From: Histidinibacterium lentulum
Lineage (GTDB): Bacteria; Pseudomonadota; Alphaproteobacteria; Rhodobacterales; Rhodobacteraceae
Direction: 5' to 3'
NCBI RefSeq assembly: GCF_003789055.1
Contig: NZ_ML119081.1
Location: 434,001 to 498,000 of the forward strand
Length of the DNA stretch: 64,000 nt
Both the position numbers and the translations under genes were made by a program. Shown in pieces: positions 42,153 to 57,579 of this stretch. Numbering within the stretch: position 1 is the stretch's first letter; each line of letters opens with the position of its first letter. Below the pieces are notes generated by a model, which saw nothing but the letters and a program-made list of their open reading frames with translations, was not told where the DNA came from and searched no databases.

Positions 42153-42680
42153 TCACACCGCCGCCGTACCCCGCGCCGGATAGCCGTTGTCGACGGCGAA
42201 CCGCGCCTTCGACAGCAGGAATTCCACGTCCGGCCGGGACCAGGGCATGTTCGATATGTCGATGAGATAGAGCCGCCCGTCCGGCCTGATCCAGAACAGG
42301 CCCGGCTCGGCAAAGGTCTGCGCCTCGGCCTCCTTGATCGAGGTGGAAACGTAAAGCCCCCATGCCTTCGCGTCTTCCACCGTCAGCCCGTAGGCAATGG
42401 TCAGCCGGTCGAGGTCCCACTCCGCCTTTGCGGCCTCGGCCCTCTCGGCGCTGTCCATCGAGACGACGACCGTCTCGACCCCGGCCTCGGCGGCGGCATC
42501 CATCAGGCCGTTGAGCTTGGTCAGGTAGCTCTTGCAGACCGGGCAGTGATAACCGCGGTAGACCACGACCATCGTGAAGTTTTCCGGGTTCCGCTCCGCG
42601 AGCGTCCAGGTGCCGCCGCCCACGAGCGGCAGGGACAGGGCGGGGGCCCGGGTATCGGGCATCGGTTTCGTCGACATCAT
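42153..42680 (-). CDS. Peroxiredoxin-like (AhpC/TSA-fold) protein
   Basis: The 175-residue thioredoxin-fold protein has TRAPALSLPLVGGGTWTLAE at the start and the redox segment VVVYRGYHCPVCKSYLTKL with a CxxC pair where peroxiredoxins keep TxxC. It likely reduces peroxides or protein disulfides in the cytoplasm. Its ATG overlaps the OsmC stop by four bases (ATGA), so the two form one operon facing away from the molybdenum hydroxylase genes. Confidence 0.82.
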   Translation of the reverse strand: MMSTKPMPDTRAPALSLPLVGGGTWTLAERNPENFTMVVVYRGYHCPVCKSYLTKLNGLMDAAAEAGVETVVVSMDSAERAEAAKAEWDLDRLTIAYGLTVEDAKAWGLYVSTSIKEAEAQTFAEPGLFWIRPDGRLYLIDISNMPWSRPDVEFLLSKARFAVDNGYPARGTAAV

Positions 42681-43159
42681 GCATGCTCCTTTGCGGCCGG
42701 CATCGGAAGCGCGGTCCAGGTTTCGGTGATCGGGGTTCCCGCGGCGCGAATGACCTTCGCCAGCGGGCAGAACTTCTGAAGATCGGCGCGGATCTCCGCG
42801 AGCTGCGCCTCGGTGGCCCCGGTCTCGACCTCCACCGACATCCGCACCTCGGTGAACGGCACGTCGACCTCCTCGATCAGGCCGACGCCGCGACGGTCGA
42901 AATCGGTCTCCAGCGCGATCCTCATCTCCCCCATGGCGACGCCTCTGGCATGGGCGATCTTGTTGGTGATGACGTTAGTGCAGGCCATCAGAGCCGACAT
43001 CAGCGTCTCCGTGGGCGTCAGGCCGAGGTTCGTGCCGCCGCGCTCCGCGGGCTCGTCGACGATCGAGTAGACATCGCGGCTGCGCGACATCGTGCGGGTA
43101 TGGCTTTGCCCGTGCGCGCTCTTCTTCATGGTCACCTGTGTCTTGGGCCTGATCGCCAT
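42677..43159 (-). CDS. OsmC-family protein
   Basis: The 160-residue OsmC/Ohr-fold protein has GGTNLGLTPTETLMSALMACTNVITNKIAHARG, with one catalytic-type Cys in the ACTN helix, and a late cysteine in LQKFCPLAKVIRAAGTPI, matching the two-cysteine peroxidase layout. It probably detoxifies organic hydroperoxides using thiols. The start ATG 43159 follows GGGAGGGGGAA; the long upstream frame is rejected. It shares the promoter region and the motif at 43206 with the divergent hydroxylase operon. Confidence 0.85.
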   Translation of the reverse strand: MAIRPKTQVTMKKSAHGQSHTRTMSRSRDVYSIVDEPAERGGTNLGLTPTETLMSALMACTNVITNKIAHARGVAMGEMRIALETDFDRRGVGLIEEVDVPFTEVRMSVEVETGATEAQLAEIRADLQKFCPLAKVIRAAGTPITETWTALPMPAAKEHA

Positions 43160-43205: not shown

Positions 43206-43225
43206 TTATTTATAGACCGATAACT
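43206..43225 (+). promoter_or_regulatory. Shared operator-like motif, site 1
   Basis: TTATTTATAGACCGATAACT lies between the osmC start (46 bases away) and the hydroxylase operon start (71 bases away). It agrees with sites 2 and 3 at 16 of 20 positions in all three, with a TTAT-N6-ATAA half-site arrangement typical of repressor operators. Confidence 0.7.
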
Positions 43226-43296
43226 TGTTTCGACGGAGGAGTAAGCGAGAGCCGCATGCCACGCAAGCGACCTCGCAACAGAGTGAGGAGACACGG

Positions 43297-44136
43297 GTGA
43301 AAGCACCGGATTTTGCCTATGCGCGCCCTGCGGACCTGGGGGCCGCGCTGGCGCTCTTGGCCGAGCACGGCACCGAGGCCCAGCCGCTTGCGGGCGGGCA
43401 AAGTCTCATGCCGATGATGAACTTCCGCCTCGCCGCGCCCGAGATCCTGATCGATCTTTCCGATGTCGCCGAACTGCGCGGTCTCGAACGGACGCGCGAC
43501 ACCGTCCGCATCGGCGCGATGACCCGCTACCGCGACCTCGAGGACTGGCCGGACCTCGGCGGCACCCTGCCCCTGGTCGCCATGGCGCTGCCCCATATTG
43601 CCCATGACGCGATCCGCAACCGGGGCACCATTGGCGGCAGCATCGCGCTCTGCGATCCCGCGGCCGAACTTCCCGCCGTGATGCGCGTGCTCGCCGCAGA
43701 GATCGAGGTGGCCGGAGCCGAAGGCAGCCGCCGGGTCGCGGCCGACGACTTCTTCACCGGCTTCTACGAGACCGCCTGCGGCGAGGAGGAACTGATCGTC
43801 GCGATCCATGTCCCCGTGGCCGAAGCGGACCGGGTCTACGGGTTTCACGAACTCGCCCAGCGGCACGGCGATTATGCCATGGCGGGGGTCGCCCTGTCCG
43901 CCCTTTCCCCGAACCCGATCCGCAGCCTCCGAGCGGCGTTCTTCGGCATCGCCGCGACGCCCGTCCGCCTGCCCGATCTCGAGGCCGCGCTCGAAGGCCT
44001 GACCGCCTGCGAGGCCCAAGCCGCCGTCACCGCGGCGCTCGAGGGCCTTGATCTGCTTGCCGACACCAAGGCGAGCGCCGACATGCGCCGGCACCTCTCC
44101 GGCGTGGTCCTCAAGCGCGCTCTGGAGGCGATGTGA
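43297..44136 (+). CDS. Molybdenum hydroxylase, FAD subunit (CoxM-like)
   Basis: The 279-residue medium subunit has the FAD motifs PLAGGQSLMPMMNFRLAAPE and RNRGTIGGSIALCDPAAELP, followed by the CO-dehydrogenase flavoprotein C-terminal domain. It passes electrons from the iron-sulfur subunit to an acceptor. The start GTG 43297 follows GTGAGGAG. It is first of three genes with one-base to four-base overlaps (TGATG with the iron-sulfur subunit, ATGA from that subunit to the large subunit), implying equimolar translation. Confidence 0.9.
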   Translation: MKAPDFAYARPADLGAALALLAEHGTEAQPLAGGQSLMPMMNFRLAAPEILIDLSDVAELRGLERTRDTVRIGAMTRYRDLEDWPDLGGTLPLVAMALPHIAHDAIRNRGTIGGSIALCDPAAELPAVMRVLAAEIEVAGAEGSRRVAADDFFTGFYETACGEEELIVAIHVPVAEADRVYGFHELAQRHGDYAMAGVALSALSPNPIRSLRAAFFGIAATPVRLPDLEAALEGLTACEAQAAVTAALEGLDLLADTKASADMRRHLSGVVLKRALEAM

Positions 44137-44621
44137 TGGACAAGACCCGCGAAATCACCCTGACCGTCAACGGCGAGAGCGTCACCGCCCGCGTGCCCGT
44201 GCGCATGAACCTCGTCGATTTCCTGCGAAACGAACTCGAACTGACCGGCAGCCATGTGGGGTGCGAGCACGGCGTGTGCGGTGCCTGCACGCTGCTGATG
44301 GACGGCCGGACGACACGCGCCTGCCTGACCCTCGCCGTGCAGGCCGACGGCGCCGAGGTGGTGACCGTGGAGGGCCTCGCCGCCTCCGGCAGGTCCGCCG
44401 CCCTCGCCCGTGCCTTCACCGAGCGCAACGCCCTGCAGTGCGGCTTCTGCACGCCCGGGATGCTCGCCTCGGCGGTGACCTGGGTCGAGGGCGGCGGCAG
44501 CGCCGAACGCGACGCGATCCGCGCCCATATCAGCGGCAACTACTGCCGATGCACCGGCTATCAATCCATCGTCGACGCCATCGCGGACGTGGCAGGCAGC
44601 AAGGCGGAGGACGCCGCATGA
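44136..44621 (+). CDS. Molybdenum hydroxylase, [2Fe-2S] subunit (CoxS-like)
   Basis: The 161-residue small subunit has a plant-ferredoxin-type cluster (Cys43, Cys48, Cys51, Cys63 in CEHGVCGACTLLMDGRTTRAC) and a second cluster in a helical domain (Cys102, Cys105, Cys137, Cys139 in CGFCTPG and CRCTG). It is the standard electron relay of xanthine-oxidase-family enzymes. All eight ligands are present. It overlaps the neighbouring genes at both ends. Confidence 0.93.
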   Translation: MDKTREITLTVNGESVTARVPVRMNLVDFLRNELELTGSHVGCEHGVCGACTLLMDGRTTRACLTLAVQADGAEVVTVEGLAASGRSAALARAFTERNALQCGFCTPGMLASAVTWVEGGGSAERDAIRAHISGNYCRCTGYQSIVDAIADVAGSKAEDAA

Positions 44622-46996
44622 CCGGCCCCCTGAGCGAACTCGACCGCCCCAATTCCTACATCGGCCGCGCGGTGCCCCGCGCCGATGCCGCCCGCCTGCT
44701 CGCAGGCCGGGGCAAGTACCTTGACGACATCAGGCTGCCCCGGATGCTTCACGCCGTCTTCGTGCGCAGCCCCCACGCCCATGCGCGCATCAAGGCCATC
44801 GACACCGAGGCCGCCCGCGCCATGCCCGGCGTTGCGGCGGTCTACACCGGGGCGGAGATCGCCGAGCACTGTACGCCCTGGGTCGGCGTGCTGAGCCACC
44901 TCGCGGGCCTGCGCTCGCCGCCGCAGCACAGCGTCGCGGTGGACGTCGCGCGTTGGCAAGGGGAGCCTGTCGCCGTGGTCCTGGCCCGCAGCCGTGCCGA
45001 GGCCGAGGACGCCGCGGACCTTGTCGACGTGGACTACGAGGAACTGCCCCCCGTGCTCGACGCCGAGGCGGCTCTTGAACCGGATTCCCCAAGGATTCAC
45101 GAGGGTTACGATTCGAACCTCGCTTGGGAACGCAAGGTCGACGTGGGCGATATCGACACCGCGTTCGCCGCGCCGGGCGTGACGGTGGTGGAACGCACCT
45201 TCCGCTTCGGCCGCCATACCGGCGTCACGCTCGAGGCGCGAGGCACGGTCTGCGACTACGACCCCGGCGAGGGGGTGCTGACCATGCACTATTCGGGCCA
45301 GGCGCCGCACATGCTGCAGGTGATCCTGTCCCGGCATCTGGGGATGGCCGAGGAGAACGTGCGCGTCGTCTCCGGCGACGTGGGCGGTTCCTTCGGCATC
45401 AAGGTCCATACCTACGGCGACGAGATCGCCTGCGCCGCCCTGTCGAAGATGCTGGAACGGCCCGTGAAATTCGTGGCCGACCGGCAGGAGAGCTTCCTGA
45501 CGGACATCCACGCCCGCGACCATGTCGTGAAGGCGCGGATGGGCGTGGATGCCGAAGGCCGGATCGTCGGCATCGACATGGACGACATCACCGGGATCGG
45601 CCCCTATTCGATGTATCCCCGCACCTCGGCCATCGAGTGCAACCAGGTGCTGAACCTCACCGGCGCGCCCTACATGATGGAGAACTACCGCGCCCGCGGC
45701 CGGGTGGTGTTCCAGAACAAGACGCTCATGTGCCAGTACCGGGCCGTGGGCCACCCCATTGCCATGGCGGTCTGCGACGGCCTGCTCGAGGACGTCGCCC
45801 GCGCCACGGGACGCGATCCGGTGGAGCTGCGCCGGCTCAACCTGATGCCAGACGACGGCTATCCGCGCGCCTCGGCCTCCGGCATGAAGCTGGCCGACCT
45901 CTCGCACCAGAAGACGCTCGAAAAGCTGGTGGAGCTCATGGACTACGACGCCCTGCGCCGGGACCAGGAGGAGGCCCGCGCGCGCGGCGTCCTGCGCGGC
46001 ATCGGCCTTTGCTCCATGGTCGAAGTCACCAACCCCTCGCCCGCCTTCTACGGGATCGGCGGCGCGCCCATCGCCAGCCAGGACGGCGCCACCTGCCGGC
46101 TCGACGCGGGCGGCGCGCTGCATGTCTCCTCCTCGGTCACCGAGCAGGGCCAGGGTACCAACGCCATCCTCGCCCAGATCGCCGCCGACCGCTTCGGCGT
46201 GCCCATCGAGCGGGTCAAGGTCACCACGGGCGACACCGCCACCGTGCCCTACGGCGGCGGCACCTGGGCCTCCCGCGGCGCGGGCATCGGCGGCGAGGCG
46301 ATGCTGCTCGCCGCCGACGCGCTCAAGCACCAGGTGCTCGAGGTCGCCGCGGCGCTCCTCCAGGCCGAGGCCGGCGTCCTGGATATCCGCAACGGAACCG
46401 TGGTCGATGCCACAACCGGGGCGGAGCGGATCGCGCTCTCCGATCTTGCGCGCACGGTCTACTATCGCGGCAACGAACTGCCCCCCGACCTGAAACCCGA
46501 GCTGATCGCCACGCGGCACTACCGCGTGACGGATTTTCCCTTCGTCTTCACCAACGGCGCCATGGCCACCCATGTGGAGGTCGATGCCGAGACCGGCTTC
46601 GTGAAGGTTCTCGGCTTCTGGGTGGTCGAGGATTGCGGCACGGTCATCAACCCCATGCTGGTCGACGAACAGGTCCGCGGCGGCGTGGTGCAGGGCATCG
46701 GTGGGGCACTTTACGAGGAATGCCTCTATGACGAAGAGGGTCAGCTCCTGACCGCCACCATGGCGGACTATCTCGTCCCCATGGCCGCCGAGATGCCCGA
46801 CATCGAGGTCGCCCATGTGGAGACGCCGACAAGCACCTCCGTGCTGGGCGCCAAGGGCGCGGGCGAGGCCGGCACGGGCGGTGCACCCGCGGCACTTCTC
46901 AATGCGGTCAACGACGCGCTGGCGCCGCTTGGCGCCTCGATCTGGCAGCAGCCCATGACGCCCGAGCGGGTGCTGCGGGCCATGGGCCGGCTCTGA
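44618..46996 (+). CDS. Molybdenum hydroxylase, large catalytic subunit (xanthine oxidase family)
   Basis: The 792-residue subunit binds the molybdopterin cofactor: GDVGGSFGIK (253-262), EQGQGTN (509-515) and the base Glu750 in GAKGAGEAGTGG. The active-site loop reads CQYRAVGHP (372-380), unlike the Cys-bearing loop of true CO dehydrogenase, so it hydroxylates an organic, probably heteroaromatic or aldehyde, substrate with water as oxygen donor. The enzyme is cytoplasmic. It needs molybdenum cofactor maturation factors (XdhC/CoxDEF-like), none of which is in this window. Confidence 0.9.
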   Translation: MTGPLSELDRPNSYIGRAVPRADAARLLAGRGKYLDDIRLPRMLHAVFVRSPHAHARIKAIDTEAARAMPGVAAVYTGAEIAEHCTPWVGVLSHLAGLRSPPQHSVAVDVARWQGEPVAVVLARSRAEAEDAADLVDVDYEELPPVLDAEAALEPDSPRIHEGYDSNLAWERKVDVGDIDTAFAAPGVTVVERTFRFGRHTGVTLEARGTVCDYDPGEGVLTMHYSGQAPHMLQVILSRHLGMAEENVRVVSGDVGGSFGIKVHTYGDEIACAALSKMLERPVKFVADRQESFLTDIHARDHVVKARMGVDAEGRIVGIDMDDITGIGPYSMYPRTSAIECNQVLNLTGAPYMMENYRARGRVVFQNKTLMCQYRAVGHPIAMAVCDGLLEDVARATGRDPVELRRLNLMPDDGYPRASASGMKLADLSHQKTLEKLVELMDYDALRRDQEEARARGVLRGIGLCSMVEVTNPSPAFYGIGGAPIASQDGATCRLDAGGALHVSSSVTEQGQGTNAILAQIAADRFGVPIERVKVTTGDTATVPYGGGTWASRGAGIGGEAMLLAADALKHQVLEVAAALLQAEAGVLDIRNGTVVDATTGAERIALSDLARTVYYRGNELPPDLKPELIATRHYRVTDFPFVFTNGAMATHVEVDAETGFVKVLGFWVVEDCGTVINPMLVDEQVRGGVVQGIGGALYEECLYDEEGQLLTATMADYLVPMAAEMPDIEVAHVETPTSTSVLGAKGAGEAGTGGAPAALLNAVNDALAPLGASIWQQPMTPERVLRAMGRL

Positions 46997-47038
46997 ACCG
47001 GGAGGGGGGCGCCGCGGCAGGCCGCGGCGCGATCGGTC

Positions 47039-47575
47039 TCAGTCCGACGTCTCGAGATCGCCCGCCGCGTTCACCCGCAGACCGGTTTCGTGCGACTGCC
47101 GCAGCACCTCGGGCGCCCAGTCGACCCGGCCCCCATCCCCCGTTTCAGGCTTCGAGCCGATAATCGCCATCAGCAGCGCCTTCTCGGTCCCGATGTTGCG
47201 AAAGCCGCGAAAGATGCCCGGCGGAAAGGAGATGACGTCGAAGGTATCAATCTCGATCTCCTTGTCTCCCGCCTCCCCCCAATAGGCGGCCCAGCGGCCG
47301 GTCAGGGGAATGAACACCTCCACCGTCTCGTGAGCATGGAGCGCCGCGCCCTTCCCGGGCTCCGCGCCGACGTAGGTGATCGAGAAGTTCCGGCTGTCCG
47401 CGATTGCCGGCGCAAGCCCCGGGTCCTCGGTCACGCCACGGCCGATCACGTTGTATATGTCGCGGGCATAGTCGGGGATGCGGGTATCGACGAAGGCCTG
47501 GGTCGAAGGCGTCATGGAGGCAAAACGCGCGACGCGTGCCTGCATCTCTTCAACGGTCGGGTCCGGGGTGCTCAT
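47039..47575 (-). CDS. Cupin-domain protein
   Basis: The 178-residue single-cupin protein has GKGAALHAHETVEVFIPLTGRWAAYWG (motif 1, with His-x-His and Glu) and DVISFPPGIFRGFRNIG (motif 2, where the second His is replaced by Arg/Phe, so metal binding may be incomplete). Helices precede the cupin (VEEMQARVARFASMTP). It could be a dioxygenase, isomerase or ligand-binding protein of the catabolic pathway. It is downstream of the TRAP binding-protein gene on the same strand, beyond a GC hairpin. Confidence 0.75.
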   Translation of the reverse strand: MSTPDPTVEEMQARVARFASMTPSTQAFVDTRIPDYARDIYNVIGRGVTEDPGLAPAIADSRNFSITYVGAEPGKGAALHAHETVEVFIPLTGRWAAYWGEAGDKEIEIDTFDVISFPPGIFRGFRNIGTEKALLMAIIGSKPETGDGGRVDWAPEVLRQSHETGLRVNAAGDLETSD

Positions 47576-47636
47576 GGTCGGCTCTCCTCTGGAGGGGGCC
47601 CGCCGGCGCGCCTGGCCCCGGTCGGGCCGGAATGGT

Positions 47637-47658
47637 GGGCGCCCCGCAGGGGGCGCCC
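47637..47658 (-). terminator. Hairpin between TRAP binding protein and cupin gene
   Basis: The perfect 9-bp stem GGGCGCCCC/GGGGCGCCC with loop GCAG starts 9 bases after the binding-protein stop. A stem here can protect the abundant binding-protein mRNA and lower read-through into the cupin gene. There is no U-tract. Confidence 0.55.
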
Positions 47659-47666
47659 GCGGTGCG

Positions 47667-48746
47667 TCACTCGATGGTGTAGTCGAGCGGCCAGTCGAAG
47701 CCCGCGTCGGTCGCAGCCTGCAGATAGGCGTTCATCACTTCCGTGCCGGGCATCCCGCGGCCGTTGGCATCGGCCGCCATCGCTGCCGGGAACTCGGCCA
47801 GCGAGGCCGCCCACTCGGCCCGAACCTCGGGGGTGATCTCGGTGATCACGGCCCCCGCTTCGGCCAGCCCGTCGAGGCCGCGCTGCTGGGCGGCGTTCAG
47901 GCTCTCGCCCGCCTGCGCCTCGTAGGCCGCGCCCACTTCGAGGATGATCTGCTGCACATCCTCGGGAAGGCGCTCGAGGCTCCGCTGGTTCATCGTCAGC
48001 GCGTTCACGCCCATCGCGCCGAACCCGATCAGCGTGTAGTAGGGCGAAGGCTCGTAGTACTTGAAGCCGAGATAGGCCGAGGGGAACATCAGCCAGCCGT
48101 CGTAGACGCCGGTCTGCAGCGAGAGGTATCCCTCGGGCAATGTCGACTGCACGGGGATCGCGCCGGCGTATTCCAGCCACGGCAGGTTCGGACCCGCGCC
48201 GCCGATCTTGACGCCCTGAAGGTCGGCGACGGACTCCCAGGGGTTCGTCGTGCCGAGGTGGTAGTCGTCCCAGCCGTGCAGGCCCAGCAGCACCTGGCCG
48301 TATTCCTGGGTGAACTGCTCGGTGAGCCACGGGATCTGGTCGTAGACGGCCCGCACGGCTTCCATCTGCTGCGCGGAATCCTGCGGTCCGAAGGGCGCGT
48401 AATAGGGGAAATTGTGCAAGAACAGCTTTGCGGGTTCGAAACAGATGCAATAGGCCCCGATATCGAGAATGCCGTTCTGCACGGATTCCAGCGTCTCCGC
48501 CACGCCGGCGATCGCGCCGCCATAGCCCTCGACGAACTCGATCTCGTGCTCGGTTTCCTCGGCGACGCGGCGCTTGACCTCGGGCACGAAGAAATTGGCG
48601 ACATCGGTCACATAGACGGACGGGCCGTTCGGATGGCCCGAACCGATGCGCAGCGTAAAGGTGTCGGCCGTGGCCGCACCGGCGGCGGCGAAGGCGAGCG
48701 TGGTCGCAAGAGCGGTGCCCGCCCCGAGGCGGATGGTCGTGGTCAT
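47667..48746 (-). CDS. TRAP transporter substrate-binding protein (DctP family)
   Basis: The 359-residue periplasmic protein has a signal peptide (cleavage near GAATADT) and the DctP-fold text FTLRIGSGHPNGPSVYVTDVANFF, ETLESVQNGILDIGAYCI, WESVADLQGVKIGGAGPNLPWLEYAGA, and EGYLSLQTGVYDGWLMFPSAY. It does not show the Arg pattern of classical C4-dicarboxylate DctP, so another organic acid is likely. It is divergent from the two membrane subunits across 246 bases that contain operator site 2. Confidence 0.88.
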   Translation of the reverse strand: MTTTIRLGAGTALATTLAFAAAGAATADTFTLRIGSGHPNGPSVYVTDVANFFVPEVKRRVAEETEHEIEFVEGYGGAIAGVAETLESVQNGILDIGAYCICFEPAKLFLHNFPYYAPFGPQDSAQQMEAVRAVYDQIPWLTEQFTQEYGQVLLGLHGWDDYHLGTTNPWESVADLQGVKIGGAGPNLPWLEYAGAIPVQSTLPEGYLSLQTGVYDGWLMFPSAYLGFKYYEPSPYYTLIGFGAMGVNALTMNQRSLERLPEDVQQIILEVGAAYEAQAGESLNAAQQRGLDGLAEAGAVITEITPEVRAEWAASLAEFPAAMAADANGRGMPGTEVMNAYLQAATDAGFDWPLDYTIE

Positions 48747-48893
48747 GGCAAGTCGTCCTCCCAGTTGCCGCGAGCGGTACTCCTCCGGCGTCTCCCGGGG
48801 CCTGAGCCCCCGCCTGTTTATCGCTCGTTAACCTGACAAGGGTCAGCACAGGCTCCCTCATCGGTCAAGCATCTCCGCAAAGGTTTGCATCAA

Positions 48894-48913
48894 TTATTTA
48901 TCGACCGCTAATT
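48894..48913 (+). promoter_or_regulatory. Shared operator-like motif, site 2
   Basis: TTATTTATCGACCGCTAATT lies 79 bases before the TRAP small-subunit start and about 147 bases from the divergent binding-protein start. Its placement relative to the plus-strand gene resembles site 1 (71 bases). Confidence 0.7.
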
Positions 48914-48992
48914 AAGCCTTGACCGGCCGGGTCGGAACGTTAGCCTCGACGGACCCTTGGCGGACAGGGCCGAAAGGGACAGGGAGGGCAGG

Positions 48993-49514
48993 ATGAATCC
49001 ACAGGTGGGCGCCGCACGCGCCCTTCATATCGTATCCGCGATCTGGACGCTGCTGCTCGCGTTTCTCGTGGTGGGCGACGTCTTCGGTCGGACTCTGCTC
49101 AACAGCCCGATCCCGGGAACCAAGGAACTCCTGCAGAACTCCATCGTCACCATCGCCTTCCTGCAATTGCCGCTCGCGATCTACTCGGGCTCCATGCTGC
49201 GCACGCCGATCCTCGCCGACGCGCTGCCGCCCTTCGCGCGCAAGCTCCTGCGGACCTTCGCGATGCTTCTGGGCTGCGCGGTCTTCGTGGGGCTGGTCTG
49301 GGGCAGCTGGCCGTCGTTCCAGGATGCCTACCGCATCGGCGAGTACGAGGGCGAGGGCTCGCTCCGGGTGCCGACCTGGCCCGTTCGCGGCGCCATCCTG
49401 GTCATGTCCGCCTTCGTCGCCGTGGCCTATGCCTGGATGATCGTGCTCGACTGGACGGGCCGCCTGCAAAACGAGCTCGAGGCGCCGGGCGCCATCGAGT
49501 CCGCGGAACACTGA
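48993..49514 (+). CDS. TRAP transporter small permease (DctQ family)
   Basis: The 173-residue four-helix inner-membrane protein has AIWTLLLAFLVVGDVFGRTLLNSPIPGTKELLQNSIVTIAFLQLPLA, the DctQ family core. It supports the DctM transporter. The start ATG 48993 follows AGGGAGGGCAGG. It is 12 bases upstream of the large permease. Confidence 0.88.
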   Translation: MNPQVGAARALHIVSAIWTLLLAFLVVGDVFGRTLLNSPIPGTKELLQNSIVTIAFLQLPLAIYSGSMLRTPILADALPPFARKLLRTFAMLLGCAVFVGLVWGSWPSFQDAYRIGEYEGEGSLRVPTWPVRGAILVMSAFVAVAYAWMIVLDWTGRLQNELEAPGAIESAEH

Positions 49515-49526
49515 GGGACACGGATC

Positions 49527-50843
49527 ATGGGCGGCGATATCGTTCTCTACATGCTCGGCCTGCTGATCGTGCTGATCCTCCTCGGGGTGCACATCGGCGT
49601 GGCCCTCGCGGTCTGCTCCTTCCTCGGCATGCTCCTGATGGGCTTTCCCTTCGAGGCGGCCATCTCGATCCTGTCGAGCACGGCCTATGATGCCGTGAGA
49701 AAGGACATTTTCGCGGTGATCCCGCTCTTCGTGCTGATGGGCGACGTGATCTGGCGATCCGGCGCGGCGGCCGATCTCTACCGCATCTGCGACCGGGGCC
49801 TGCGCCGCCTGCCCGGCCGGCTCGCCATCGCCACGATCGCGGGCAACACCGTCTTCGCGGCGGTCACCGGCGTGTCCATCGCCGCCGCCGCCGCCTTCAG
49901 CCGCATCGCCTATCCGCAGATGAAGGCGCTCGGCTACAACCAGACCTTCGCCCTCGGCGCTGTCGCCGGCTCCTCCTGCCTCGGCATGCTCATCCCGCCG
50001 TCAATCCTGCTGATCGTCTGGGCGATCCTGACCGAAATGAGCGTGGGCGCCCTCTTCATGGCCGGCATCCTGCCGGGCCTGCTGCTGGCGGCACTCTTCA
50101 CGCTCTACGTGATCGCAGCTGCGGTCTTCAGACCCGCCCTCGCCCCCGCGTACAGCGCCCCCCTCGTCGAACCGACGCGCGAGGAGGTCCGCTCCGAGCT
50201 GATCGGCGGCCTCGGCATCCTCGCGCTGATCCTCGTGGTGATCGGCGGCATCTGGTCCGGCTTCTTCACCCCGACCGAGGCTGCCGGCTTCGGCGCGGTG
50301 ACGGCGCTGATCCTCGGCGTCGTGAAGGGCATGGGCTGGCGCGATTTCCAGTTCACTCTCTACCAGGCGGCGCGCACCACGGCGCCGATCATGTTCCTGC
50401 TGATAACCGCGTCCATGTATTCGCGCCTGCTCGCACTCGGCGGCGGCGTCAACTACATCCAGGGCCTGTTTCTGGGTGCGGAGCTGTCGCCCGCGACGAT
50501 CATCCTTCTGATGGTGCTCGTCTGGCTGGTGCTGGGAATGCTTGTGGACAGCGTGTCGATCATCCTGCTGACGGTGCCGATATTCGCGCCCATCGCCGTC
50601 GGACTGGGAGTCGATCCGCTGGCCTTCGCGATCTTCGGCATCCTCGTGATCGAGGCCGGGCTGCTGACGCCGCCCTTCGGCATCCTCGTCTACACGGTCA
50701 AGGGATCGGTCCCCGACCCCACAGCGACCCTGGGCAAGATCTTCCTCGGATCGGCGCCCTATTTCGCGTTGATCCTCGTGGCGGCCTTCATCGTGCTGGC
50801 CGTGCCGTGGCTCGCCACGCAACTGCCCGCGCTGCTCATGTAG
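49527..50843 (+). CDS. TRAP transporter large permease (DctM family)
   Basis: The 438-residue sodium-coupled transporter has about 12 helices. Family segments include AYDAVRKDIFAVIPLFVLMGD, AGSSCLGMLIPPSILLIVWAILTEMSVG, FTPTEAAGFGA, and IEAGLLTPPFGILVYTVKG. It imports the ligand delivered by the binding protein at 47667. The neighbouring pathway genes suggest an aromatic or heterocyclic acid (inference). Confidence 0.9.
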   Translation: MGGDIVLYMLGLLIVLILLGVHIGVALAVCSFLGMLLMGFPFEAAISILSSTAYDAVRKDIFAVIPLFVLMGDVIWRSGAAADLYRICDRGLRRLPGRLAIATIAGNTVFAAVTGVSIAAAAAFSRIAYPQMKALGYNQTFALGAVAGSSCLGMLIPPSILLIVWAILTEMSVGALFMAGILPGLLLAALFTLYVIAAAVFRPALAPAYSAPLVEPTREEVRSELIGGLGILALILVVIGGIWSGFFTPTEAAGFGAVTALILGVVKGMGWRDFQFTLYQAARTTAPIMFLLITASMYSRLLALGGGVNYIQGLFLGAELSPATIILLMVLVWLVLGMLVDSVSIILLTVPIFAPIAVGLGVDPLAFAIFGILVIEAGLLTPPFGILVYTVKGSVPDPTATLGKIFLGSAPYFALILVAAFIVLAVPWLATQLPALLM

Positions 50844-50852
50844 ACCCGGCAG

Positions 50853-50873
50853 GCATCGGATTTTGCGATGCCC
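50853..50873 (+). terminator. Hairpin after the TRAP permease gene
   Basis: The 7-bp stem GGCATCG/CGATGCC has a 7-base loop GATTTTG and begins 9 bases after the stop. It may partly separate the transporter transcript from the monooxygenase operon. Confidence 0.45.
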
Positions 50874-50948
50874 GCCACCCGATATCATGATTTTTCCCGA
50901 ACGGTCCCGGGGCCTATCTTCCCCCGAAAGATGCTGGGAGGCGCGACG

Positions 50949-52055
50949 ATGAAACTTGGCTTTTTCACCATGCCGATCCATCCGCTGGACAAGGACTGGC
51001 GGCAATGCCTGCACGAGGACCGCGAGGCGTTCCTGCTTGCCGACGAGCTGGGCTTCGCCGAGGCCTATGTCGGCGAGCACACGACCGACAAGGCGGAGAA
51101 CATCACCCACTGCATCAGCTTCATCGCCTGGATCGCCCATGCGACGAAGCAGATCCGCCTCGGCACGGGCACGGTGAACCTGCCCAACACCCACCCCGCC
51201 GCCGTGGCCGGCCAGGTGGCAATGCTCGACCACATGCTCGACGGGCGCCTCATCTTCGGCATCTCTCCGGGCGGCCTGGCCTCGGACGCAGAGGCCTTCG
51301 GCAGCCTCGACGCCAACCGTCAGGAGATGTTCCTCGAGGGGATCAACACCGTCCTGAAGATCTGGGAAAGCGAGGCCCCCTACAACATCGAGGGCAAGTA
51401 TTGGTCGATCTCGACCGAGCGCACCCAGATGCTCGACATCGGTCAGGGCATCATGGCAAAACCCCTCCAGCAGCCCCATCCGCCCATCGTGGTGACCGCC
51501 GTGGCCCCCTTCTCCAAGGGCGTGACCGAGGCGGCCGCACGGGGCTGGGATCCGATATCCGCGAACTTTCTGCTAAAGCAGTGGGTCAAGACCCACTGGC
51601 CGAAATACGTCGAGGGCTGCGAGCGGGCGAGCCGCCCCGCGGACCCGGCGAACTGGCGCGTGGCGCGCTCGGTCTTCGTCGCCGACGACATGGAGACGGC
51701 GCGCGAATACGCCCTCGGGCCGCAGAGCCCCTACCGCTTCTACTACAGCCAGTTGCTGACCAAGATGAAGAAGCATGGCCGCGCGAACCTCTTCAAGGCG
51801 GACCAGAACATGCACGACGACGAGGTCACGCTCGAGGGCGTGCTCGACGAATGCGTGATCTGGGGGACGCCCGACAAGGTCGCGGACGAGATCCTCGCCC
51901 TGCGCGAGGAGGTCGGCGATTTCGGCACCCTGCTCTATGCGGGCAAGGACTGGGCCGACAAGGAACTGGGCCGCAAGTCCATGATCCTGCTCGCCGAAAA
52001 GGCCCTGCCCATCGTGAACGCCGCCATCGACCGCGAAAAGGTCGCGGCCCAATGA
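50949..52055 (+). CDS. Luciferase-family (LLM) flavin-dependent monooxygenase
   Basis: This is a 368-residue TIM-barrel enzyme that uses reduced flavin supplied by a partner reductase. It shows MKLGFFTMPIHP, ADELGFAEAYVGEHTTD, KQIRLGTGTVNLPNTHPAAVAGQVAMLDHMLDGRLIFGISPGG, and VTAVAPFSKGVTEAAARGWDPIS. It likely hydroxylates or opens a ring rather than emitting light. The flavin reductase at 55955 is the natural partner. The start ATG 50949 follows GGGAGG. It overlaps the next gene by four bases. Confidence 0.88.
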   Translation: MKLGFFTMPIHPLDKDWRQCLHEDREAFLLADELGFAEAYVGEHTTDKAENITHCISFIAWIAHATKQIRLGTGTVNLPNTHPAAVAGQVAMLDHMLDGRLIFGISPGGLASDAEAFGSLDANRQEMFLEGINTVLKIWESEAPYNIEGKYWSISTERTQMLDIGQGIMAKPLQQPHPPIVVTAVAPFSKGVTEAAARGWDPISANFLLKQWVKTHWPKYVEGCERASRPADPANWRVARSVFVADDMETAREYALGPQSPYRFYYSQLLTKMKKHGRANLFKADQNMHDDEVTLEGVLDECVIWGTPDKVADEILALREEVGDFGTLLYAGKDWADKELGRKSMILLAEKALPIVNAAIDREKVAAQ

Positions 52056-52849
52056 CGGACAGACGCGTGGACCGCGGCGGCTGGAGCCTCGCCGCGGTCG
52101 AAAGCGGACAGGCCCCGGGCGCGCCCGTGGTCGTGATGTCGAACTCCCTCGGGGCCACCCGGGCGATGTGGGACGACCAGGCCGACTGGCTCGGCCGGAC
52201 CGCCCGCGTCATCCGCTACGATACGCGCGGCCACGGCGCCTCGGACACGCCCCCCGGCCCCTACAGCTTTGACGATCTCGTCGATGACGTGCTCGCGGTG
52301 ATGGACGCCTTCGGCGTGGGCCGCGCCGCCTATGTGGGCCTGTCGCTGGGCGGCATGACCGGTCTCGGCCTCGGCCTGCGGGCGCCCGAGCGGCTGACGA
52401 GGCTCGTCGTCGCCGCCGCCCGCGCCGACGCGCCCCCGCCCTTCGTGCAAAGCTGGGACGACCGCGTCGCCAAGATCCGCGAGGGCGGCATGGCCGCGAT
52501 CTGGCCCGGCACGCTGGAGCGCTGGCTCACCCCCGGCTTCCAGGAGGCCGAGCCCGAGGCCGCCGAGGCGCTCAGGGCCCAGTTCCTCGAGACCACAGTG
52601 GACGGCTATGCCGGATGCGCCGCGGCCTTGCAGGGCCTCGACTACCTGCGGCACCTCGGCAACCTCACGATCCCGACGCTCTACGTCGCTGGTGCCGAGG
52701 ACATGGGCGCGCCCGCCTCCGCCATGGAGTCCATGGCCGCTGCCACGCCCGACGCGCGCTATGTCTGCGTGGCGGATGCCGCCCATATCGTGAACCTTGA
52801 CGGCCGCGCCGCCTTCGACGCCGCCCTCCGCGACTTTCTGGAGCTCTGA
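52052..52849 (+). CDS. Alpha/beta hydrolase, 3-oxoadipate enol-lactonase-like
   Basis: The 265-residue hydrolase has nucleophile Ser98 in VGLSLGGMTGLGL, acid Asp217 (VAGAEDMGAP) and base His245 (DAAHIVNLD). The N-terminal SNSLGATRAMWDDQ and RYDTRGHGASDTPPGPYSFDDL strongly recall PcaD, which opens an enol-lactone in the protocatechuate pathway. No other pca genes are near, so it probably hydrolyses a lactone, amide or C-C bond of a different ring-cleavage intermediate. It is translationally coupled to the LLM monooxygenase. Confidence 0.85.
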   Translation: MTDRRVDRGGWSLAAVESGQAPGAPVVVMSNSLGATRAMWDDQADWLGRTARVIRYDTRGHGASDTPPGPYSFDDLVDDVLAVMDAFGVGRAAYVGLSLGGMTGLGLGLRAPERLTRLVVAAARADAPPPFVQSWDDRVAKIREGGMAAIWPGTLERWLTPGFQEAEPEAAEALRAQFLETTVDGYAGCAAALQGLDYLRHLGNLTIPTLYVAGAEDMGAPASAMESMAAATPDARYVCVADAAHIVNLDGRAAFDAALRDFLEL

Positions 52850-52850
52850 C

Positions 52851-53750
52851 ATGCGTCTGACCGACCGAATTCCCTACCAGGCCATCGTCGACCGCCCTGC
52901 CCTGCGCCTGCCCGGCGGAAAGAAGGTGGCGGTCTGGGTCATCGTCAACGTCGAGGAATGGCAGATCGAGCGCGCCATGCCGCGCACCGTCCTGTCCCCG
53001 CCCATGGGCCAGCCGCTGCTGCCTGACGTGCCGAACTGGTCCTGGCACGAATACGGGATGCGCGCCGGCTTCTGGCGTCACTGGAAGGCGCTGACGGATC
53101 GCGAGATTCCGACGACGATGGCGGTCAACGGCAATGTCTGCCGCAGCTATCCCCGCGTGGCCGAAGCCGGCCTGAAATCGGGCTGGGAGATGATGGGTCA
53201 CGGCTTCGTTCAGGGGCCGATGCACCGGCTCGAGGACCAGCCCGCCGCGATCCGCGACGCCTGCGAGGCGATCCGTGCCTTCGCCGGTGTCTCGCCCCGC
53301 TCCTGGGAGAGCCCGGGCCTGACCGAGACGGAGGAGACGCTGGACCTCTTGCGGCTCAACGGCATCGAATATGTGGCCGACTGGGTGATCGACGACCTGC
53401 CGCAGACGATCTCCACCCCGCACGGGGACATCACGACGGTGCCCTACACGGTCGAGGTCAACGACATCACGATCCATGCGCTTCAGCAGCATGTCTCCGA
53501 GGAATTCTTCCGCCGCGGCCGGGATCAGTTCGAGCGGCTGATGATGGAGGCCGAGGAGACCGGCGTGCCGCGGGTGATGGCGATTTCCGTGCATCCCTAC
53601 ATCACGGGCGTGCCGCACCGGATCGGATATTTCGAGAAGCTGCTCGACCATGTCATGGGCCACCAGGGTACGGCGATGATGACCGCCTCCGAAATCGGCG
53701 ACTGGTACACCTCCGAGATGGTCCGGCTCTCGGCAGAGCGGGTGGCCTGA
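52851..53750 (+). CDS. NodB-fold hydrolase (polysaccharide deacetylase/PuuE-allantoinase-like)
   Basis: The 299-residue protein has KVAVWVIVNVEEWQIERAMPR, MAVNGNVCRSYPRVAEAGLKSGWEMMGHGFVQGPMHRL with His117 and His125 as likely metal ligands, GVSPRSWESPGLTETEETLDLL, and SVHPYITGVPHR near the end. The Asp-Asp pair of sugar deacetylases is replaced by Glu-Glu, as in the cytosolic PuuE-like subgroup that acts on cyclic or linear amides. No signal peptide is present. In an operon with a monooxygenase and a hydrolase it most likely cleaves a C-N bond of a pathway intermediate (inference). Confidence 0.8.
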   Translation: MRLTDRIPYQAIVDRPALRLPGGKKVAVWVIVNVEEWQIERAMPRTVLSPPMGQPLLPDVPNWSWHEYGMRAGFWRHWKALTDREIPTTMAVNGNVCRSYPRVAEAGLKSGWEMMGHGFVQGPMHRLEDQPAAIRDACEAIRAFAGVSPRSWESPGLTETEETLDLLRLNGIEYVADWVIDDLPQTISTPHGDITTVPYTVEVNDITIHALQQHVSEEFFRRGRDQFERLMMEAEETGVPRVMAISVHPYITGVPHRIGYFEKLLDHVMGHQGTAMMTASEIGDWYTSEMVRLSAERVA

Positions 53751-54104
53751 CCGGCATCGCCTGGGGCGTCCACATGTGGACGCTCCTCTAGGCCATTGAA
53801 ATATATAGCGGAACGCGAAAGCGTTGCGCAACTGGCCCAGGGTGTTCGGTCGCGCGCCCCCATCGCCCCGGCTCGGCAACGCTCCGGGAATCGCGGGACC
53901 CTGGACGGCCCCGCCACGAATTCAGGGCCCACGACATGGCGACGACCCGCAGATCATCCGGCGGCGCGGGACGGTCAACAAGCGCCAGGTCGCGGGGACG
54001 GTCGTGCGCTGCCCGCGCCGCTTCGTGGCCGCTTCCGGGCAGGGCGCCCCGCCCGGCGCCGCGTCGGGAGCGTGGTCCCGCGCACCACGACCCCCGCCCC
54101 GGTG
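53751..54104. other. 354-base spacer between convergent genes
   Basis: It contains a perfect 18-base palindrome (53766-53783), an AT-rich stretch TTGAAATATATAGCGG (about 53796-53811) unlike the surroundings, and a GTTGCGCAAC palindrome (53823-53832). No convincing protein was found in any frame. The AT-rich stretch between two convergent 3' ends would fit a promoter for a small RNA or a degraded gene. Confidence 0.45.
53766..53783 (+). terminator. Palindrome after the NodB-fold gene
   Basis: GCGTCCACATGTGGACGC is a perfect palindrome 15 bases after the stop, followed by TCCTCTA. It could be a terminator stem (short loop) or a protein-binding site. Confidence 0.45.
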
Positions 54105-55295
54105 TCAGATCGCCACAGCCGTCGTGCGCATGATCTCCTCGAGCCGCGGGTTGGCGCGGCCGTCGGGGTTCGTCTCTCTCGGGCTGCCGAAGATGTAACT
54201 GCCAAGCTCCCGCGCCCGCTCATGGGCGAGGCGCGAGGCGGGAACGCGTTCCGCGGAATAGCCGGCGAGGCCCGCCGCCACGTCGCCGCCGTCCCCGAGG
54301 TGCCGCGCGAGTGCGAGCGCGTCGCAGGCGGCCTTGGTCACGCCCATCCCCATGTGGGGCCGCGCCACGCAGGCCGCATCCCCGGCAAGCGCCACCCGGC
54401 CCGCGCCCATGACCTCCACGCAATGATCGTAGATCGGCGTGAAGAAGGGTCGCTCGCTGACCTCGAGGATCTCGACGAACGGCAGGGGCAGCCAGGCCTC
54501 GGCCTCCTCGCGCATCTGCGCCAGGACTTCGTTCCGGATCAGCGGCGGAGGGATCGTCACGCGGTGCCTGTGCCCTGTCGCGTCGGTCAGCATCGCGTCG
54601 AGTTTTCCTGCATCCGCAGGGGAGTACCAGACGAAGTTGTAGCGCCGGTTCCCCGGTCTCAGATCGTTCTCGGGTCCGGCGATCGGATAGCCGATGATCT
54701 GCGTGCCCGCGGGTGCGAAGAAGCCGAAGGCGGGAAAGACCGAGGCCCGCACCTCCTCGGACAGCTCCGCCTCGGCCGCCAGAGCGCGCCAGACGACATA
54801 ACCCGCATAGGTCGGCGCCACGGCGGGCTGGAACTGCCCGCGCACCGCCGACCGGAAGCCGTCCGCGCCCACGACGAGATCGGCCTCCTCGCGGCTGCCG
54901 TCCTCGAACCGGACGATCACGCTCCCGCCCGTCTCCTCGTAGCCCGCGATGACCCGGCCCAGATGATAGCGCCCCTCGGGCACCAGCGGCCGCAGGAGCC
55001 GGTGCACCCGGTCCCAGGAGGTCACGATCTGGGGGAATTCCATCGCCCGGACCCGGCCGCCCTGGCGGTCGAAGGCCACGCGCTCTTCCACCGCGACGCC
55101 CAGATCGTGTGTCCCCGCCCCGACGCTTTCCAGCGCCTCGACGAGCGCGGGATGCGTGACGATACCCGCGCCCCGGCCCGACAGTTCGGCCGAGGCGCGC
55201 TCGAACACATCGACCTCCCAGCCCGCCCGGCGCAAAGCCGCCGCCGCGAAAAGCCCGCCGATGGACCCGCCCCCGATGATCGCCCGCGCTGCCAC
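54105..55295 (-). CDS. FAD-dependent aromatic/pyridine ring monooxygenase
   Basis: The 396-residue class A flavin hydroxylase has the FAD motif AIIGGGSIGGLFAAAALRRAG, the second motif VVGADGFRSAVRG, and the GD motif VALAGDAACVARPHMGMGVTKAACDA. The segment NRRYNFVWYSPADAG and the ARPHMGMGVTKA text resemble 2,6-dihydroxypyridine 3-hydroxylases more than salicylate hydroxylases. The start is GTG 55295 behind GGGAGGG. Operator site 3 lies 16 bases upstream of the start, ideal for repression. It is downstream of the reductase and CMD-like genes on the same strand but with its own promoter. Confidence 0.85.
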   Translation of the reverse strand: MAARAIIGGGSIGGLFAAAALRRAGWEVDVFERASAELSGRGAGIVTHPALVEALESVGAGTHDLGVAVEERVAFDRQGGRVRAMEFPQIVTSWDRVHRLLRPLVPEGRYHLGRVIAGYEETGGSVIVRFEDGSREEADLVVGADGFRSAVRGQFQPAVAPTYAGYVVWRALAAEAELSEEVRASVFPAFGFFAPAGTQIIGYPIAGPENDLRPGNRRYNFVWYSPADAGKLDAMLTDATGHRHRVTIPPPLIRNEVLAQMREEAEAWLPLPFVEILEVSERPFFTPIYDHCVEVMGAGRVALAGDAACVARPHMGMGVTKAACDALALARHLGDGGDVAAGLAGYSAERVPASRLAHERARELGSYIFGSPRETNPDGRANPRLEEIMRTTAVAI

Positions 55296-55310
55296 TCCGC
55301 ACCCTCCCGC

Positions 55311-55330
55311 TTATTTATCGACCTATAACT
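55311..55330 (+). promoter_or_regulatory. Shared operator-like motif, site 3
   Basis: TTATTTATCGACCTATAACT is 16 bases upstream of the GTG of the FAD monooxygenase (minus strand), in the 63-base gap after the CMD-like gene. It differs from site 1 at two of 20 positions. Confidence 0.7.
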
Positions 55331-55358
55331 AAGGCCAGGGAACGGGACGGGCAAGCCC

Positions 55359-55958
55359 TCAGGTGCGGAACATCTCCTGGGGTGTCATGTCGAGCACCGG
55401 CAGCGACGGGCCGTCTCCGTCGGGCACGTTGAAGGCGTTGATCGTCATGGATATCAGCGTGTAATAGCCGCAGATCCCCACCAGGTCGACCATGCCCCTG
55501 TCGCCGAGCGCGGCAAGGCCCCGGCCATAGGCCGCATCCGAAATCGCCCGATCCCGGTGCAGCTCGACAGAGCAGTCGAAGACGGCCTGCCCCTCGTCGT
55601 CACCCAGGATCGCGGCGCGCCCATGGGCGATGGCCTCGACCACGTCCTCGGGCACACCCGATGCGAGGGCGATGGGCGCATGGGTCGCCCACTCGAAGCC
55701 CGAGGACCAGATGCGCGCGGTCACGAGGATCGCGAGCTCCGACAGATGCGGCGGCAGCGCGCTGTCGTAGCGCGCATACTGTCCCAGCGCCTGCGCCGTC
55801 TCGGCAAGACCCGGGCTCGTCAGCCAGACCCGCAGAGGCCCCACCACATCGCCCCGGGGTCCGGAGGCGATCAGATGATGGACCCGTCTCTGTTCGTCGG
55901 TGAAGGCGTCGGGATCATAGGGCGGCGCCCGCCCCGGTCGTCCTCCGGCTGGCGTCAT
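55359..55958 (-). CDS. Carboxymuconolactone decarboxylase/AhpD-like protein
   Basis: This is a 199-residue helical CMD-fold protein: RVWLTSPGLAETAQALGQYARY, LPPHLSELAILVTARIWSSGFEWATHAPIALASGVPEDVVEAI, and LHRDRAISDAAYGRGLAALGDRGMVDLVGICGYYTLISMTINAF. The AhpD CxxC is absent (SSGFEW in its place), so it is not an AhpD reductase; a decarboxylase or isomerase role fits better. It is coupled to the flavin reductase by an ATGA overlap. Confidence 0.82.
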   Translation of the reverse strand: MTPAGGRPGRAPPYDPDAFTDEQRRVHHLIASGPRGDVVGPLRVWLTSPGLAETAQALGQYARYDSALPPHLSELAILVTARIWSSGFEWATHAPIALASGVPEDVVEAIAHGRAAILGDDEGQAVFDCSVELHRDRAISDAAYGRGLAALGDRGMVDLVGICGYYTLISMTINAFNVPDGDGPSLPVLDMTPQEMFRT

Positions 55959-56446
55959 TCGGCAAGCCTTGCCATCTTGCCGGAGTAGAACAGCATGGGG
56001 TCCCCCCCGGCAGTCTCGAGGTGCAGGACCTCGCCGACAATGATCTCGTGGTCGCCACCCGGATAGGAGGCATGGTGCCGGCATTCGAACCGCGCGATCG
56101 CGCCGTCGATGCAGGGCACGTCGCAGCGCTCTCCGGGAAAGGAGGGGACGCCCTCGAACTTGTCGTCGCGGGGCTTGGCGAACTGCCAGGCCACCTGTTC
56201 CTGGTCGGCGGCGAGCACGTTGACGGCGAAGTGCCGCCCGTCCTTCAGCCAGCGCCGGCTGACCTGGGCATTCCCGAGAGAGAACAGCAGGAGCGGCGGC
56301 TCGAGGCTCAGGGACGAGAAGCTGTTCACGGTCACCCCCGTGGGACGGCCCTCGTCGTCGCGCATGGTCACCACGGTCACCCCGGTGGCGAAGCGCCCGA
56401 AGGCATTGCGCAGGGCGCGGGGGTCGATCAGTCCGGCGTCGAGCAT
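55955..56446 (-). CDS. Flavin reductase (HpaC/NtaB-like)
   Basis: The 163-residue split-barrel flavin reductase has LRNAFGRFATGVTVVTMRDDEGRPTGVTVNSFSSLSLEPPLLLFSLG, FAVNVLAADQEQVAWQFA, and AIARFECRHHASYPGGDHEIIVGEV, the complete family pattern. It supplies FMNH2 or FADH2 to a two-component monooxygenase, most likely the LLM enzyme at 50949. The start ATG 56446 follows AAGGAGAG; the upstream in-frame extension is rejected. It is divergent from the LysR gene. Confidence 0.9.
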   Translation of the reverse strand: MLDAGLIDPRALRNAFGRFATGVTVVTMRDDEGRPTGVTVNSFSSLSLEPPLLLFSLGNAQVSRRWLKDGRHFAVNVLAADQEQVAWQFAKPRDDKFEGVPSFPGERCDVPCIDGAIARFECRHHASYPGGDHEIIVGEVLHLETAGGDPMLFYSGKMARLAE

Positions 56447-56562
56447 CTGTCTCTCCTTGTCGGCCTCAATCCATGTCGGCCTCGGTCGGCCTTGCAACAC
56501 CGGAAGGTCCCGTGCTGCAACCGTTCGCATGATCCGAAGATAGGGCGCTCGACACATCGCGC

Positions 56563-56597
56563 AAAATGATAAAGGATCATCCGCACCATATCATTTT
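56563..56597. promoter_or_regulatory. Dyad between flavin reductase and LysR genes
   Basis: The 9-bp inverted arms AAAATGATA and TATCATTTT are 17 bases apart, with a nested ATGAT-AAAGG-ATCAT dyad. The arms lie 10 bases before the LysR ATG. This is the size and position expected for a LysR autoregulatory and activation site. Confidence 0.6.
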
Positions 56598-56607
56598 CGG
56601 ATAGGCC

Positions 56608-57579
56608 ATGCCCCTGCCCACCATTTCCCTGCGCGGCCTCCAGGCCTTCATCGCGGTCTACGAGGAACAGTCCTTCTCCCGCGCCGCCCTGCGCGAGAAC
56701 GCGACGCAATCGGGCATGTCGACCCAGGTCAAGACGCTGGAGCTGCGCCTCGGCACCGAGCTGCTGAACCGGGACCGCAAGCAGTTCACCCTGACCCCCG
56801 CCGGCCAGATCGTCTATCGCGAGGGCCAGTCGATCCTGAAGGCGCTCCACGCCACCGAGGCGCGGGTGAAGGAGTTGCGCGCCGAGGTGGCGGGGATGGT
56901 GAAGTTCGGGATGATCCCCTCCCTGACCCGCTCGGTGCTGAAGGCCGCGCTCGACGCCTTTCACGCCGATCATCCGGGTGTCGAGCTCTCGCTGCTCGAG
57001 GAATACAGCTACAGCCTGATGCGCCGGGTTCTCGACGGCGAGATCGAATTCGCCATGGTCCCGGCGGGCGATCTGCCCGCGGGGCTGACCGCGCGCTTCG
57101 TCGCCCGCGACCGGGAGATGCTGGTCTCCCGCCCCGGCGCCCTGCCCGGCGCGGCGCATCTTTCGCCCGTGTCCATCGCGGCGCTGTCGGGCGCGCGGCT
57201 GATCGTGCCCTCGCGGCTCAACGTGCGGCGGCGCGGGATCGACAGCCTGTTGCAGGCCCATGGCGTGCATCTGGCCGAGACGATGGAGATGGACGGCATG
57301 CTCGCCACGCTGGAGCTGGTGGCGGCCAGCGACTGGATGGCGATCCTGCCCTCGGCGATCTGCCATCCCGACCGCGACGGGCGCGCGCGGCAGCTCAACG
57401 TCATCGCCGATCCGCCGATGAGCCTCGATTACGTGATTGTGGAGAAATCCGACGCGCCGCCGGCCCGTGCGGCGCAGCTCCTTGCCGAATGCCTGACGCG
57501 GCACACCCATGACGTGCTCGCCGACTGGGACGACCTGCGCGGCATCGCGGAAGCCGAACCCGTGCATTCGAAGGAATGA
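56608..57579 (+). CDS. LysR-family transcriptional regulator
   Basis: The 323-residue regulator has a winged HTH (SLRGLQAFIAVYEEQSFSRAALRENATQSGMSTQVKTLELRLGTELLNRDRKQFTLTPAG) and a periplasmic-binding-like effector domain from about residue 95. It is divergent from the flavin-reductase operon and next to the dyad at 56563, so it probably activates that operon in response to a pathway compound. The HTH has QSGMSTQVKTLE in place of the usual SQPALSRQIRRLE; the function is unaffected as far as can be seen. Confidence 0.88.
   Translation: MPLPTISLRGLQAFIAVYEEQSFSRAALRENATQSGMSTQVKTLELRLGTELLNRDRKQFTLTPAGQIVYREGQSILKALHATEARVKELRAEVAGMVKFGMIPSLTRSVLKAALDAFHADHPGVELSLLEEYSYSLMRRVLDGEIEFAMVPAGDLPAGLTARFVARDREMLVSRPGALPGAAHLSPVSIAALSGARLIVPSRLNVRRRGIDSLLQAHGVHLAETMEMDGMLATLELVAASDWMAILPSAICHPDRDGRARQLNVIADPPMSLDYVIVEKSDAPPARAAQLLAECLTRHTHDVLADWDDLRGIAEAEPVHSKE

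Follow-up and report, generated by a model that had tools for sequence, protein, structure and literature searches.

A putative TetR-type catabolic regulon with a near-palindromic operator in Histidinibacterium lentulum and its relatives

The DNA considered here, referred to below as the window, is a 64,000-nucleotide stretch of Histidinibacterium lentulum (Rhodobacteraceae; RefSeq assembly GCF_003789055.1, contig NZ_ML119081.1, positions 434,001 to 498,000) that carries a predicted catabolic gene cluster. Three promoter gaps of this cluster share the motif TTATTTATMGACCKMTAAYT, which a pattern search of the window finds as exact matches at 43206-43225, 48894-48913, and 55311-55330. At its full extent the first copy (43206..43227, forward strand, matrix score 33.9; the matrix is described below) lies between a gene for an OsmC-like protein (42677..43159, reverse strand) and the gene for the FAD subunit of a molybdenum hydroxylase (Mo-hydroxylase; 43297..44136, forward strand). 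The second (48894..48915, forward, score 35.1) occupies the gap between the genes for the TRAP transporter substrate-binding protein DctP (47667..48746, reverse) and for DctQ (48993..49514, forward), while the third (55311..55332, forward, score 33.4) sits 16 bases upstream of the start, at 55295, of an FAD monooxygenase gene (54105..55295, reverse). All three are intergenic. An earlier note, made from the letters of the window, had placed the copies in these gaps, given them 16 of 20 identical positions, and thought a chance origin unlikely. Column comparison agrees on the identities (the variable columns are 9, 14, 15, and 19). The pattern has no match in 100 dinucleotide shuffles of the window, and a search of the whole 4,353,039-base genome that allowed up to three mismatches returned the three copies and nothing else; the reversed pattern gives none. 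The TTAT-N6-ATAA core described in the note is not strictly common to all three, since the second copy reads TTAT-N6-CTAA.

What does the complete element look like? The predicted operator is a near-palindrome of about 22 bp, TTATTTATCGAnYGATAAATAA, with its center between motif positions 11 and 12. A 22-column matrix built up from four sites of the organism itself settled at 55 sites, spread over 13 cluster loci; all 55 are intergenic, though 89% of the sequence is coding according to the gene caller used. Over 228 sites with a score of at least 20, the consensus is TTATTTATCGATTGATAAATAA, and 70% of position pairs are complementary about this center versus 26 to 43% about other centers. The distance from the center to the start codon has a median of 74.5 bp and a lower quartile of 38.5 (224 sites).

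The note was thus right about the three copies, but a 20-base motif is slightly too short and a count of three too low. The matrix or a looser pattern gives at least seven sites in the genome. A weaker one (48814..48835, forward, score 20.2) shares the divergent TRAP promoter gap, 80 bp from the site at 48894; two more lie outside the window, at about C1:118373 and at C1:118441-118462; and the seventh, at about C1:501981, is upstream of a cupin gene related to the cupin gene that precedes the FAD monooxygenase gene in other genomes. A looser, 17-base pattern also matches four places away from any cluster, which were left out of the count because the reversed control gives three. The motif is therefore not scattered over many unrelated genes of its own genome, an outcome the note had named as fatal to its proposal, yet the claim that it defines a regulon by itself was too strong. 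Paired TRAP sites are found in ten loci, the window included, with a spacing of 80 or 81 bp in six and a different spacing in the rest. In the window, the pair (48814-48915) might allow DNA looping or might serve one divergent promoter each.

Which protein would read this operator? A search of the organism's own genome for TetR homologs returned one strong match, at C1:117173-117865 (60% identity to the query; the next best have 33% and 31%). The window starts at C1:434001, which puts this gene some 316 kb to its left. The tetR gene adjoins an OsmC-like gene in the same operon, and the divergent cyclase-family gene is 90% identical to its relative. The 134-bp gap between the OsmC-like and cyclase genes holds the two sites outside the window just mentioned, with scores of 20.7 and 34.4. 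In the 231-residue protein Pfam recognizes only the N-terminal domain (PF00440, TetR_N, residues 28 to 72, 50.6 bits against a cutoff of 24). That domain, a size close to the 200 to 230 residues or so expected, and a palindromic operator at its own divergent promoter are all traits of the TetR/AcrR family. It is not a BetI by the NCBIfam equivalog (19.4 against 201.3). The motif is very probably the operator of this TetR-family regulator, and the genes behind the sites make up what is, as predicted from sequence, a new TetR-type catabolic regulon. The earlier note had expected a GntR-, MarR-, or TetR-type gene outside the window with the motif at its own promoter, encoding a dimeric repressor, and that prediction finds support in the candidate gene and its two sites.

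The same pairing was looked for in relatives. Searched motif first, with up to three mismatches, 71 of 295 genomes of the family (mostly one per genus, yet not independent) have a match, mostly a single one, and ten have at least two within 20 kb on one contig. Thirteen stretches from 11 genomes were taken for gene calling and protein comparison. Those from ten genomes (L034 to L045) carry the cluster of the window or large parts of it, while one from genome G003 (L046) does not; L046 and L039 were left out of the matrix. Eight stretches contain a gene family with a TetR helix-turn-helix (F9) that is divergent from a cyclase-family gene and, in seven, shares an operon with an OsmC-like gene; the gene caller made no OsmC call in L035. 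Orthologs of TetR with 53% identity or more occur in 9 of the 10 motif-pair genomes versus 2 of the 285 others (Fisher p, 1e-14), and these two, G165 and G284, also have sites in their clusters. One ortholog, in G104 (C1:1894598-1895254), reads with a single in-frame TGA. Loss of the motif from homologous promoters, the other outcome that the note had held to be damaging, is not what the relatives display: sites are present at the TRAP promoters of all ten other cluster loci, at the orthologous Mo-hydroxylase promoter in all ten other family genomes examined, in the gap between the OsmC-tetR operon and the cyclase gene in nine of nine other genomes, and at the FAD monooxygenase gene, or the cupin gene before it, in seven of ten.

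A search from the regulator outward gives a similar picture. The best 80 of at least 370 relatives of TetR were retrieved, in part with the peptide QPLLYRYF; four loci on the same contigs as training loci were dropped, leaving 76, mostly from Rhodobacterales and Hyphomicrobiales. With self-trained gene calls, 72 of them contain sites scoring at least 20, a total of 171 with 153 intergenic; the reversed matrix gives none and 30 column-permuted matrices at most one. In 60 loci the 2.5 kb upstream of TetR include at least one site scoring 18 or higher. The TetR/motif pairing thus appears to recur in other marine and root-associated bacteria, beside genes resembling those for ring-compound degradation. 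Two TetR loci with motif sites, L130 and L152, come from records labeled Terriglobia (a metagenome-assembled genome) and Ectothiorhodospiraceae, by horizontal transfer or misbinning.

The recognition helix was compared across TetR homologs of the family, in 29 short loci that surround their genes. A site scoring at least 20 lies within about 1.5 kb in 10 of the 13 loci with the helix TQPL[LI]YRYF and in none of the 16 with other helices (TQSLLF, SHAVIY, and one other); a cutoff of 18 raises these counts to 11 and 1, respectively.

Several observations weigh against the assignment of the motif to this TetR. Ten of the 13 TQPL[LI]YRYF loci stem from genomes that contributed to the matrix; among the other three, a site is clear in L079 (31.0), marginal in the second (18.1), and absent from the third. 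Conservation of the helix in the larger TetR set is partly by construction because the retrieval itself partly used its peptide. Four of the 76 loci (L150, L155, L159, and L161) lack the motif despite having the same helix, and three of the ten FAD monooxygenase promoters are without a site. The motif-pair genome G164, which is AT rich with many control matches, has no TetR ortholog, and G165 has the ortholog with no site near its tetR (L061 and L180).

How might the system work? We infer that a TetR dimer would bind each near-palindrome and block transcription. The two operators between the OsmC-tetR operon and the cyclase gene would place the regulator under its own control, while the five or more others would govern Mo-hydroxylase, TRAP uptake, FAD monooxygenase, and a cupin gene. 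A substrate or intermediate of the pathway, binding the C-terminal domain, would release TetR from the DNA and thereby turn on uptake and ring hydroxylation along with the operon that encodes the regulator. Promoter scans found no sigma-70-like promoter around the three window sites, which tells against this scheme, since overlap of site and promoter, and hence repression, must be read from the nearness of sites to start codons alone. Could TetR bind the motif and act instead as an activator or dual regulator? The lack of recognizable promoter elements at the window sites would fit such a role, and TRAP pairs about 80 bp apart, as in six of the ten paired loci, would suit cooperative action, but many sites lie as close to a start codon as those of repressors do (see the distances above), and most characterized TetR-family proteins are repressors; activation is accordingly improbable, though the best placed of the alternatives. 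TTGACA-like hexamers are enriched 28 to 29 bases upstream of the site center (33 of 354 hexamer matches, 358 oriented promoters). No promoter is claimed from them because equal or higher counts occur at offsets 0 and 13 and because the relatives are not independent.

Repression by TetR also has to be set against other possible readers of the motif. A LysR-type regulator gene (56608-57579) is the one regulator gene recognized beside the cluster in the window, where it adjoins the flavin reductase gene. It was seen in the stretches of 7 of the 11 genomes with TetR and motif (the organism's own, L035, L036, L038, L040, L044, and L180), whereas L034, L037, L041, and L042 keep the motif with no LysR gene in the stretches fetched, and LysR was rejected as the reader. 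LysR proteins usually bind T-N11-A sites, which an even-length near-palindrome does not resemble, and the divergent LysR gap has no site scoring 15 or more. That LysR binds these sites is thus highly unlikely. The flavin reductase/LysR gap (56557-56608) contains a different inverted repeat, AAAATGATA...TATCATTTT, and the corresponding gaps in L040, L044, and L180 have similar ATGATA/TATCAT words, so LysR probably has a site of its own. The chance that some other regulator, such as a GntR-FCD protein (L178:3329-3955), or an unrecognized factor reads the motif is equally slim, for although roughly 1 kb separates that gene from the seventh site, members of its family turned up in the comparison set, in which whole genomes were not searched for GntR orthologs, only in G165 (L045) and some Hyphomicrobiales loci, and TetR is the sole regulator encountered in all 11 genomes. 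Immediately beyond the right edge of the window, the GntR-FCD gene is flanked by ABC transporter genes and a metallo-beta-lactamase-fold gene.

What would the TetR regulon contain? To the left of the first site, beyond the OsmC-like gene, lies a gene for an AhpC/TSA-type redoxin (42153..42680, reverse; PF00578) conserved in eight of the fetched loci. On the other side, the Mo-hydroxylase genes continue with the 2Fe-2S subunit (44136..44621, forward) and the large subunit (44618..46996, forward), whose best solved relative is quinoline 2-oxidoreductase and which falls below the NCBIfam CO dehydrogenase cutoff (461.6 versus 991.15). A cupin gene follows (47039..47575, reverse). DctM of the TRAP transporter (49527..50843) precedes, also on the forward strand, a luciferase-like monooxygenase (50931..52055; best solved relative, 3,6-diketocamphane monooxygenase), a PcaD-type alpha/beta hydrolase (52052..52849; TIGR02427 above cutoff), and a PuuE-like amidohydrolase of the polysaccharide-deacetylase fold (52851..53750; solved relatives, PuuE allantoinase and kin). 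The best solved relative of the FAD monooxygenase is 2,6-dihydroxypyridine hydroxylase (2VOU). The genes at 55359..56446 (reverse), for a carboxymuconolactone-decarboxylase-like protein and the flavin reductase, are candidate members only. Judging from these best solved relatives, the pathway is probably one for the breakdown of an N-heteroaromatic compound. A gene family beside the FAD monooxygenase (F18), guessed from its size to be MarR, was rejected as such: its sequence is cupin-like with a weak bicupin match, and the organism's own copy has no Pfam match. Beside tetR, each of the three loci from Hyphomicrobiales that were examined encodes a flavin hydroxylase of the acyl-CoA-dehydrogenase fold; in L116, where it is accompanied by a flavin reductase, it is closest to HsaA and the p-hydroxyphenylacetate hydroxylase oxygenases.

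Known systems resemble this one in part. RutR is also a TetR-family protein with a palindromic operator and a catabolic cluster, and the Rut cluster includes a luciferase-like monooxygenase, a flavin reductase, and an alpha/beta hydrolase. However, the candidate TetR falls below the NCBIfam cutoff for RutR (19.2 bits, cutoff 368), the RutR operator, TTGACCA-N2-TGGTCAA, is unlike the one here, and to our knowledge Mo-hydroxylase, TRAP, and cyclase genes are not part of Rut. AcuR, for acrylate and dimethylsulfoniopropionate in Rhodobacter, is a TetR-family catabolic regulator from the same bacterial order and, according to PMC3017554, is encoded beside its target genes. It differs in those targets and by score (23.8 bits for the candidate, cutoff 247). 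No description of a regulon of this TetR and motif was found in the open-licence literature, which is weak evidence of absence.

The closest parallel is the pea-rhizosphere region of pRL8 in Rhizobium johnstonii/leguminosarum 3841, which has orthologs of TetR (51 to 54% identity), the cyclase (80%), a HisD-like dehydrogenase (81%), and a short-chain dehydrogenase/reductase (SDR; 53%). Over 147 kb of plasmid pRL8, three sites score at least 20, and the next best reaches 15.0. One is downstream of tetR and precedes moaA, another occupies the gap that separates tetR from the cyclase gene, and the third falls between the genes for SDR and xdhC. The cyclase and SDR genes, both behind a site, were assigned by gene order to pRL80036 and pRL80037, which in the main text of PMC3333776 are upregulated in the pea rhizosphere six- to ten-fold and 2.5- to 3.5-fold, respectively. 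According to the same text, pRL80021, 23-25, and 26-30 are likewise induced there; these have no site, so the expression pattern fits a regulon without proving one. Neither pRL80035 nor TetR occurs in that main text, where the regulator goes unnamed. CoxMSL of pRL8 was considered as the ortholog of the window Mo-hydroxylase and rejected, its large subunit having 29% identity, and the pea-induced coxMSL operon differs further in having no site scoring even 8 in the stretch scanned. This pea-induced molybdenum enzyme (L181, 2498-4876), annotated as a CO dehydrogenase, is thus distant although the tetR, cyclase, and HisD-like genes are common to both regions.

Overall, the motif is now tied to a candidate regulator, an operator matrix, and a predicted regulon common to many alphaproteobacteria. 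A broader reading, tentative and rather less likely to be right than wrong, is that one previously undescribed TetR, shared by marine Rhodobacterales and plant-associated Hyphomicrobiales, senses a single widespread N-heteroaromatic compound and turns on its uptake and ring opening. The regulator, its operator, and the cyclase would have been kept while the lineages exchanged catabolic enzymes (TRAP for ABC uptake, and the 2,6-dihydroxypyridine-hydroxylase-like FAD enzyme for a two-component flavin hydroxylase). If this is true, the cyclase gene of pRL8 would be induced specifically in the pea rhizosphere because TetR responds there to a compound in root exudate. The operator can be used to locate missing pathway genes in other genomes, and the ligand of the regulator would reveal the compound degraded, connecting a marine pathway with the still unexplained response of Rhizobium pRL8 in the pea rhizosphere.

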